DNA of 20,572 nt. Source: a virus. Under the pieces are notes generated by a model, which was given only the letters and a program-made list of their open reading frames with translations, was not told the DNA's origin and made no database searches. A program made the translations under genes and the position numbers. The stretch spans positions 1 to 20,572 of IMG/VR virus record IMGVR_UViG_3300028925_012323; one strand, given 5' to 3'. Positions 2,077 to 3,923 of this stretch are shown here, one piece after another (within the stretch, counting starts at the first letter, position 1; the number at the start of each line of letters is the position of its first letter).

Positions 2077-2526
2077 TTATCCAATTTTAATTGTTTTTCT
2101 ATTCTTGCATTCTTCTTTTAAGAAGCTAATACTGAGTACACCATTTTCTAATGTCGCCTCTGTTATTTTTATATTAGGGGCAATGTTAAAGTTACGAGTA
2201 AACACTCGCTGTGCTAATCCACCATAGTGAAGCACTGTAGAATGTTTCGCATTGTCATTACTTTTAATAATACCTTTAACGGTAAGCTTACCATCTTCTT
2301 CAAAGATTTCAATTTCGTCTTTAGTAAAACCTGCTACAGCCATATCAATACGATATGAGTTGTTAGTTTTATCTTCAGTAAGGTTATACGGTGGGTAGTT
2401 ACTTGTTGGCATAGGGGTAGTAAACAACCAGTTGTCAGCAAACCCTACAGACATTTTATGGAATAACTCTTTAACATGGGCATCCATGCGGCCCATTTGA
2501 TCTTTTGCACCTATATTAGTATTCAT
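2077..2526 (-). CDS. hsp20: small heat shock protein (Hsp20/alpha-crystallin family)
   Basis: A 149-residue ATP-independent chaperone of the IbpA/Hsp20 family, which binds unfolding proteins and keeps them refoldable. The alpha-crystallin domain spans about 40-135. PPYNLTEDKTNNSYRIDMAV opens it, followed by GFTKDEIEIFEEDGKLTVKG, a loop, and the signature TLENGVLSISFLKEE. The C-terminal I-x-I anchor is present as KTIKIG. Length and order are normal for the family. ATG has a good ribosome site (AAAGGAGAAATGAA). Unlike its tightly packed neighbours it has a 138-base leader with its own promoter-like elements. Hsp20 genes are known in cyanophages; here it may aid virion assembly or protect host or phage proteins (inference). 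Confidence 0.93.
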   Translation of the reverse strand: MNTNIGAKDQMGRMDAHVKELFHKMSVGFADNWLFTTPMPTSNYPPYNLTEDKTNNSYRIDMAVAGFTKDEIEIFEEDGKLTVKGIIKSNDNAKHSTVLHYGGLAQRVFTRNFNIAPNIKITEATLENGVLSISFLKEECKNRKTIKIG

Positions 2527-2618: not shown

Positions 2619-2642
2619 GTTTTTTATCACTTAACTTTATAT

Positions 2643-2659
2643 TCCTGTACGTGACAGGA
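2643..2659 (-). other. small hairpin after the Cys-rich gene
   Basis: TCCTGT-ACGTG-ACAGGA forms a 6-bp stem with a 5-base loop a few bases past the stop of the Cys-rich gene. No U-run follows on either strand, so it is not a canonical intrinsic terminator. It could be a transcript 3' end stabiliser or chance. Confidence 0.3.
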
Positions 2660-2664
2660 TACTA

Positions 2665-2790
2665 TCAGACACTCCAGCCTTCTTCAGACTTTTCCATAGG
2701 CACCCTGACGCACTCACACATTTCAGGAGTACAGTTTTTACAAGAACACTCTTCTGGACATTGATTACAGGTACAGTTTTTACATGCCAT
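2665..2790 (-). CDS. Cys-rich, metallothionein-like microprotein (41 residues)
   Basis: A 41-residue protein with nine cysteines in its first 27 residues: C3, C6, C8, C11, C15, C17, C20, C25 and C27. They are arranged as CxxCxCxxC...CxCxxC....CxC, with CKNCT occurring twice. The C-terminal 14 residues are Cys-free and acidic. This density of CxC and CxxC is what metallothioneins use to bind Zn, Cd or Cu as thiolate clusters, so metal binding is a reasonable inference. The cysteine codons are almost all TGT, one TGC. ATG lies 3 bases after the stop of the preceding gene, which points to coupled translation in the leftward operon. Too short for most gene callers; I cannot exclude another Cys-rich family. 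Confidence 0.68.
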   Translation of the reverse strand: MACKNCTCNQCPEECSCKNCTPEMCECVRVPMEKSEEGWSV

Positions 2791-2793
2791 TAT

Positions 2794-3021
2794 TTATAAA
2801 TCCCACATCTTAGTTAATAGGTTAGAAGTAGTCACAGCGCGCTTACGACTTCGTGCCTTATACTTACGTTTAGGAAAGTGTTTATCTAAGAAATTTTTTG
2901 ACATCTTACTTTTAGAAAACAACCCGCCTGCCCGATAATCTTTATTGACTACTTTAGCTTTAGCAGCAGCTTTATAACCCGCCTTTGTATACGGATAATG
3001 TTTATCTCCTACTTGTGGCAT
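2794..3021 (-). CDS. small basic phage protein with YRAGG motif, unknown
   Basis: A 75-residue very basic protein. The N-terminus MPQVGDKHYPYTKAGYKAA resembles a segment often seen in small marine phage proteins (VGxKxFPYTxxGKxxA, from memory). It also carries KDYRAGGLF, related to the YRKGG tails of the products at 53-481 and 3021-3653. No membrane segment or enzyme motif. Its ATG shares one base with the stop of the upstream gene (TAATG), and it is followed 3 bases later by the Cys-rich gene. Likely a structural or DNA-associated accessory protein; not established. Confidence 0.78.
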   Translation of the reverse strand: MPQVGDKHYPYTKAGYKAAAKAKVVNKDYRAGGLFSKSKMSKNFLDKHFPKRKYKARSRKRAVTTSNLLTKMWDL

Positions 3022-3653
3022 TAGTAAAACATCCCTCCTTTACGGTATTCTTTACGGCCATGCCTATAAGATGGCCCTATGAGGCCACCTCTTTTCATTA
3101 CCATGCCTTCTTTAGGATTCCACTGACGCTGACCCTCTTTCATAATCTGTCCTACCTCTTTTTCAGTACGTGCCTTAGAGTCAATGGCCCTTTGCAGTCG
3201 TAGAATCTGACTAGTTTTTTCTTTCGCTGATAATTCTTTTCCTATACGCCCACTTTTTACACTTGTAATCATTTTCTTTAATTCGGTAATATTATGATTT
3301 TCAGCAAGATGTTTAGCTGAAACACCACGAAGTACAGGGCCGGGATCACTCTTTTGCTGAACGTGCCCTTGCCAACCAGCGCCTCTTTCTACAACACGCC
3401 CTTTTACAGGAGTACCGGGAGGTAGCTTTAAATACTGACGCAATTTATCTTCTTGGTCAGCTTTCCATTTTGCTTCTGCTACCCGTCCTTTTTCTATACG
3501 GGCTTCATTGGCTGCAGCAGCGCCTGCTGGTCGCCCATCATCTCCTTTTGCTCGTAATGCTCTTAGTTTTCTTACTCGTGCCCTATTAGCTGCATCACCT
3601 GTTAATGCTTTTACACCCGCAATAACTTTTTTAGCTACTTTTTTCTTAACCAT
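3021..3653 (-). CDS. basic phage protein, longer copy of a tandem duplicate
   Basis: A 210-residue strongly basic, helical protein. The N-terminus MVKKKVAKKVIAGVKALTGD is nearly identical to that of the next gene upstream (3660-3923). Its region GQRQWNPKEGMVMKRGGL also matches that neighbour's GQRQYDSASGMVMNKGGL, so the two share both ends and differ in the middle. After this comes a tail LIGPSYRHGRKEYRKGG, shared with the product at 53-481. The middle contains RAAGAA/EAR-type helical sequence and KHLAENHNITELKKMITSVK. No enzyme signature. Probably virion- or DNA-associated (inference from charge and position). Confidence 0.8.
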   Translation of the reverse strand: MVKKKVAKKVIAGVKALTGDAANRARVRKLRALRAKGDDGRPAGAAAANEARIEKGRVAEAKWKADQEDKLRQYLKLPPGTPVKGRVVERGAGWQGHVQQKSDPGPVLRGVSAKHLAENHNITELKKMITSVKSGRIGKELSAKEKTSQILRLQRAIDSKARTEKEVGQIMKEGQRQWNPKEGMVMKRGGLIGPSYRHGRKEYRKGGMFY

Positions 3654-3670
3654 CTTAAATCATTTCTTCT
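3591..3670 (-). repeat. 80-bp direct repeat, copy A (gene start duplication)
   Basis: Matches 3861-3940 at an exact 270-bp offset with only a few mismatches. It covers the first codons of one basic-protein gene plus about 17 bases upstream, including the ribosome-site region. The longest identical run starts at TTTTACACCCGCAATAAC. Confidence 0.9.
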
Positions 3671-3923
3671 TATTCTTTTTAGCCAAACCACCTTTATTCA
3701 TTACCATACCAGATGCAGAATCATACTGACGTTGACCCGAATCCATAAGATATTTCATATCCTTCTCTGTACTTTTTTTCTCTTTAGCAGCCTTAGCCTT
3801 AGCCTTAGCTGCTTTATCTTTCTTACTTTTAGCTAGCTTACGTGCTCGTGCTCTTTTGGCTGCATCACCTGTTAAATCTTTTACACCCGCAATAACTTTT
3901 TTAGCTACTTTTTTCTTAACCAT
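3660..3923 (-). CDS. basic phage protein, shorter copy of a tandem duplicate
   Basis: An 87-residue Lys/Ala-rich protein, essentially a compressed version of its downstream neighbour. It shares the N-terminus (MVKKKVAKKVIAGVKDLTGD, AxRARxRKL) and a C-terminal block (GQRQYDSASGMVMNKGGLA) but has a short KAKAKAAKEKK linker between them, and ends KKNKKK. It lacks the YRHG...YRKGG tail of the longer copy. The composition suggests nucleic-acid binding. ATG start with AGAAGGAA about 12 bases upstream. The gap to the next gene is 6 bases. Function unknown. Confidence 0.78.
   Translation of the reverse strand: MVKKKVAKKVIAGVKDLTGDAAKRARARKLAKSKKDKAAKAKAKAAKEKKSTEKDMKYLMDSGQRQYDSASGMVMNKGGLAKKNKKK

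Follow-up and report, generated by a model that had tools for sequence, protein, structure and literature searches.

By sequence comparison, the reverse-strand frame at positions 2665–2790 of the window (the whole stretch analyzed here, 20,572 nucleotides of IMG/VR record IMGVR_UViG_3300028925_012323) is a real gene that belongs to a phage-borne, previously unprofiled family. It encodes a 41-residue microprotein whose number of cysteines is what evolution keeps. We hypothesize, and consider it likely, that the product is a late-expressed cytosolic metal-thiolate peptide, similar to metallothioneins, which would bind metal and protect virion assembly by buffering it.

The microprotein gene and its reading frame

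The features of the locus are as follows, all on the reverse strand.

2665..2790 (−): microprotein gene, 41 aa, ATG start, nine cysteines; relatives in at least 57 IMG/VR contigs
2710..2784 (−): cysteine module, residues 3–27, CxxCxCxxCx3CxCxxCx4CxC
2668..2709 (−): C-terminal tail VRVPMEKSEEGWSV, window clade only; other lineages have different tails or nearly none
2794..3021 (−): upstream ORF, 75 aa, basic, with RAGGL motif, 3 bases ahead of the microprotein
2637..2672 (−): remnant of a DUF6321-like ORF, which in the window stops after 11 codons
2590..2618 (−): sigma-70-like promoter before Hsp20, TTGACA-17-TATATT, 11/12 match
2077..2526 (−): Hsp20 gene (PF00011, E 1.6e-13; phrog_432, E 4.2e-30)

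The cysteines occupy residues 3, 6, 8, 11, 15, 17, 20, 25 and 27, so that the reading of 2665–2790 bears out the frame described in the initial annotation, with nine cysteines among its first 27 residues in CxC and CxxC patterns. Its internal CKNCT repeat (residues 3–7 and 17–21) was also found, as was the 3-base gap after the upstream stop, the 75-aa ORF ending at 2794; this ORF matched no family in the Pfam and PHROGs scans. The repeat is peculiar to the window’s sequence, and its relatives mostly retain just the second CxxCT. At the window’s base composition, nine or more cysteines in 41 codons are expected with a probability of about 5e-6 per frame. More telling than these odds, relatives have the frame with its start and the complete set of nine cysteines, which argues for a real, conserved gene and agrees with the earlier description of a cysteine-rich phage gene of metallothionein-like composition. 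A Shine–Dalgarno-like stretch of at least 4 bases precedes 13 of 25 microprotein starts; the window’s own start is without one.

In four relatives (L004, L009, L011 and L012), a DUF6321-like ORF (GYNKPKRTPxHP...; weak Pfam match, E 0.011) overlaps the microprotein gene at its 3′ end, with a GTG located inside the last codons of the latter. This overlap may constrain part of the conserved tail WSV.

Extent of the family and its carriers

The family was entered via relatives of the Hsp20 gene and then widened by alignment and pattern scans. All eight IMG/VR loci reached through Hsp20 alone have a frame of 41 codons upstream of Hsp20, with the window’s nine cysteines in it. A family profile (alignment A7, 25 distinct versions) was run over all loci fetched up to then and matched at least 78 of them, which were merged by a hand-made table into at least 57 distinct IMG/VR contigs, not counting the window, and comprise at least 36 distinct versions of the protein; these counts are lower bounds, because the scans reach near relatives only and one of them was evaluated among the matches listed. 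The GC content of the carrying loci ranges from 0.36 to 0.56, and every carrier seen is a virus contig of metagenomic origin.

A DNA pattern scan for eight cysteines returned, among the matches listed, at least 119 viral stretches and at least 118 stretches of bacterial genomes. Most of these listed matches were poly-cysteine readings of repeats, and after filtering of the listed matches family members were found among the viral loci only. The bacterial loci left at this point (L157, L181, L183, L186 and L250) do not belong to the family; two of them, L181 and L183, encode cysteine-rich proteins of different make-up. From a later pattern scan of 53 stretches, L465, L469 and L480 were dropped as poly-cysteine readings and L479 for having no ORF with the pattern.

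The DNA polymerase encoded in the window shares 59.7% identity with its counterpart in Puniceispirillum phage HMO-2011 at a query coverage of 100%, which identifies the window as part of an HMO-2011-type phage. A search of ten related isolates (HMO-2011, CRP-1, CRP-345, CRP-207, CRP-603, HTVC033P, CRP-3, CRP-738, HTVC115P and HTVC103P) recovered the microprotein in none of them at E 1, with the control record, L012, as the single match (1/11). The absence from all ten isolates indicates that the microprotein is dispensable for such phages. GenBank phages gave no match or matches at E 0.2 and above only, with no cultured carrier found, and plasmids gave matches at E 0.5 and above only. In bacterial genomes, none of the 79 candidate stretches from the alignment scan was confirmed, and a search of 754 genomes yielded one match in 385 of one class and none in 369 of another; the single match (E 0.0037, with an internal stop) is at chance level across 385 genomes. 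Within the databases searched, the gene is accessory and phage-restricted in its distribution.

Conservation of cysteine number

Nine cysteines are present in 34 of the 36 distinct versions, and the other two (L470/L475/L478 and L484) have eleven, which arise by a tandem CTPDKCD repeat. Among the 25 distinct proteins of the A7 alignment, no column is invariant except Met1 and those of the nine cysteines; the core has 26 columns beyond Met1, and the nine that never vary match the cysteine columns exactly, a coincidence with a probability of 3.2e-7 if they were randomly placed. Insertions and deletions between cysteines occur at three places, namely an x5 loop in L022–L027 (the L024 type), two extra residues in L315 and a shorter final gap in L310; the count of nine cysteines is unaffected by any of them. 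Because indels never cost a cysteine, cysteine number outweighs spacing, which suits a metal cluster over a rigid fold.

The initial annotation had called for a check of the frame, its cysteines and a synonymous bias in close relatives. Frame and cysteines are retained, and within the window clade (the window, L012, L004, L005, L007, L008 and L009; 21 pairs, of which three were synonymously saturated and one identical) dN/dS was 0–0.42 in the 17 computable pairs. At the codon level, TGT and TGC are freely swapped for one another in the 18 sequences with codons displayed, and no cysteine is lost. The microprotein gene is under purifying selection, and the family offers a clean example of selection acting on cysteine number instead of spacing.

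Gene neighbourhoods

At least six different gene neighbourhoods contain the microprotein gene, and in each of them it lies among genes for head, packaging or lysis functions.

Context A (window clade): small basic proteins, microprotein, Hsp20 or not, phrog_2524 protein, lysozyme; in L012, small and large terminase come after the lysozyme
Context B (L013, L016, L462): HNH or HNH-like gene, microprotein overlapping by 4 bases, then terminase genes
Context C (L015, L024, L026, L123, L283, L284, L297): major head protein, decoration protein (a second head-region protein, named by place alone), microprotein, often Hsp20, then tail or head-tail protein
Context D (L017, L018): close to a trypsin-like protease and a lysozyme-like gene
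Context E (L021): upstream of a head-to-tail connecting protein (PF12236)
Context F (L463, L475, L482): upstream of the portal gene (phrog_1216 in L475)

The exact neighbours vary by lineage and the backbones differ, with the late-gene surroundings constant. This placement suggests that production of the microprotein probably falls late in infection. In the part of the neighbours that was scanned, neither a metal transporter nor a metal-responsive regulator was recognised.

The proximity of terminase, portal, head or head-tail genes across different backbones would also be expected of a virion or assembly factor, i.e., a small clip held by zinc or by disulfides, or a donor of metal to a head or packaging protein, in which the metal is structural. 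In L013 the microprotein shares 4 bases with the HNH gene, ahead of the terminase genes, and the conserved tails QDDFGY..., GNGLLPTYRV and EExxxWSV could be docking peptides. Nevertheless, the variation of exact neighbours between lineages, the nearly tailless versions of L015, L017 and L021, and the existence of related isolates without the microprotein make such a role rather unlikely. We judge it still less probable that the microprotein acts against the host as a zinc stripper or host-protein binder, taking metal from, or docking on, a host zinc protein. A small, accessory, thiol-rich protein that was phage-restricted in our searches could have such a role, but the gene sits with late genes and not with early takeover genes, and its core is variable apart from the cysteines.

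Several further observations concern the neighbours. A phage GroES-like co-chaperonin (phrog_3188, E 4.4e-15) is encoded at 9198–9659 of L482, a few genes from the microprotein. A 2OG-Fe(II) oxygenase (PF13640) lies near the microprotein in L024 (2282–2950), and similar-looking 222-aa ORFs occupy the same place in L026 and L288. A protein of about 100 aa with an apparent signal peptide (phrog_25396, weak) is encoded downstream of the microprotein or Hsp20 in L024 (4690–4992) and L012 (6520–6831), with look-alikes in L015, L026, L123 and L297. Small lysine-rich proteins of the window (2794–3021, 3021–3653, 3660–3923 and 53–481) have (R/K)GG C-terminal motifs in common, in the forms MKRGGLIGP..YRHG, MNKGGLAKK and RAGGLF, and those of them that were scanned had no convincing family match; similar tails, KGGYVKKYA(K)GGG, adjoin the microprotein in L024, L026, L283 and L288. 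In L468 (5018–5497), the HNH-like gene and the microprotein read as a single ORF. An indel or slippery site is likelier here than a designed fusion, because the corresponding run in L481 is one A shorter. L473 contains a 162-aa read-through frame.

Relation to Hsp20

In the window, 138 bases separate the microprotein gene from the Hsp20 gene, and the neighbour is a true Hsp20, as initially annotated. The further suggestion that the two genes form a stress-protection pair is weakened by the promoter-like site between them and by how often each gene occurs alone. The TTGACA-17-TATATT site is present in all seven window-clade gaps (window, L004, L005, L007, L008, L009 and L012), with at most 5 of 300 shuffles reaching the promoter score in any of them, and in none of the four lineage C gaps tested; L012 keeps it though without a full Hsp20. 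Judging from this site, Hsp20 probably has its own transcription start in the window, which argues for separate transcription of the two genes there.

Among 80 Hsp20-anchored loci, the microprotein was found in five. Anchoring on the adaptor gene gave 80 loci, with both genes in 11, the microprotein only in 4, Hsp20 only in 13 and neither in 52; for the adaptor-anchored loci with a decoration gene (n = 67) the respective numbers were 8, 4, 9 and 46, all of these co-occurrence counts being limited by the many anchored loci that are truncated at a contig end. The 12 carriers in the set of 67 all fall within a single close clade (adaptor identity of at least 80%), so the association between the microprotein and Hsp20 is confounded by shared descent. 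Hsp20 is missing from the carriers L012, L015 and L026. A looser tie to chaperone genes is possible, with Hsp20 present in two lineages and the GroES-like gene in a third.

The same chaperone genes, Hsp20 nearby in two lineages and the GroES-like gene a few genes off in the third, would fit a thiol or redox buffer that has no metal role and soaks up oxidants or exchanges disulfides, perhaps together with chaperones. We find this explanation very improbable, as CxC and CxxC patterns with a fixed number of nine cysteines would exceed the needs of a redox buffer, and in the window clade the promoter-like site stands between the microprotein and Hsp20.

Physical character and proposed function

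The cores of the microproteins comprise 24–29 residues with nine cysteines (31–38% Cys) and have a net charge of −2 to −8, i.e., they are acidic. Aromatic residues are absent from the core in 23 of 25 versions, hydrophobic residues number one to four, and histidine is lacking in 18 of 25 cores and occurs once in the other seven. AlphaFold modeling returned no confident fold (mean pLDDT 62, pTM 0.30). No signal peptide is apparent on reading the sequence, whose N-terminus is M-x-C. Being small and cysteine-rich, with CxC and CxxC motifs and few aromatics, the microprotein has the characters of a metallothionein in the broad sense, and its composition, together with the lack of a confident fold, fits a protein that would fold around a metal-thiolate cluster. 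That eight or more cysteines hold iron–sulfur clusters instead is hardly credible, given that the ferredoxin-type motif CxxCxxCxxxCP is absent from the family modules, as judged by eye, and that the core is nearly without hydrophobic residues to shield a cluster.

For the metallothionein-like peptide that we favour, we infer metal binding, stoichiometry, timing and benefit to the phage as follows. A small, acidic, cytosolic peptide without a hydrophobic core would fold only around metal, its nine cysteines forming a thiolate cluster with soft metal ions such as Zn(II), Cu(I) or Cd(II); nine thiolates might hold three divalent ions, on the model of M3Cys9 domains. It would probably be produced late in infection, as its place among head, packaging or lysis genes suggests, and would most likely buffer or scavenge metal, and secondarily oxidants, while host metalloproteins are dismantled. 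Such metal handling would protect virion assembly. Counting against this reading are the acidic core, the lack of recognised metal transporter or regulator genes among the neighbours scanned, the absence from the ten related isolates and the lack of a metallothionein profile match. In many metallothioneins, lysines near the cysteines balance the anionic cluster; the core of the microprotein is acidic instead.

A broader proposal, possible though doubtful, is that diverse tailed phages carry, within their morphogenesis programme, a phage-restricted metal-thiolate family of their own, which would have moved between head, packaging and lysis modules and would either manage metal in assembly or ride in the particle. 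If metal binding is true, some phages manage trace metals via a dedicated gene, which would bear on the release or retention of Zn and Cu in the environment by infection and lysis. The family has been missed by length cut-offs and by current profile libraries.

Comparison with known families and metallothioneins

No match to the microprotein was found in Pfam, PHROGs (best E 0.084), NCBIfam (four versions searched) or the PDB. In the metallothionein profile search proposed in the initial annotation, no known profile matched; the composition is metallothionein-like, and the reading given in that annotation is partly supported overall. The bacterial metallothionein profile PF02069 matched none of the 25 versions and none of five carrier records at E 10. 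Cysteine-rich queries do register, as controls show: PF02069 was found in about 38–40 of a set of 59 genomes from a single class, and an SmtA-like protein matched PDB metallothioneins at E 2.3e-16. An hhalign comparison with 12 fetched SmtA-like proteins gave a probability of 1.6% over 6 aligned columns, and the histidine ligands and aromatics typical of the PF02069 domain are mostly absent from the microprotein cores. On these alignments and residues, the microprotein falls outside the bacterial metallothionein family PF02069; it may still work like a metallothionein. In the accessible part of a paper on phage small proteins (PMC11323111), the terms cysteine, zinc, metal, disulfide and metallothionein are absent, and no paper describing a phage-encoded metallothionein was found in the accessible portions of the open-licence literature. 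As far as sequence searches reach, no described family like the microprotein is found in the databases searched.

Among known systems, mycobacterial MymT, described in the accessible part of PMC7387436 as a copper-detoxification metallothionein, is likewise a small, cysteine-rich protein, of bacterial origin; no Pfam or NCBIfam match connects it with the microprotein. SmtA, BmtA and PsdMT (PF02069) are also small, with nine cysteines and some CxC and CxxC motifs, and the same part of PMC7387436 reports Zn3Cys9His and Cd4Cys9His clusters for a Pseudomonas member. The SmtA-like proteins fetched here have histidine, aromatics and a longer linker, whereas the core of the phage proteins is acidic, shorter and largely free of histidine. 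The M3Cys9 domains of animals differ from the phage module in cysteine spacing and are lysine-rich. These domains, named for metallothioneins in the accessible part of PMC10612145, likewise have nine cysteines in a module nearly without aromatics. Compared with them, the phage module is acidic and forms a single domain.
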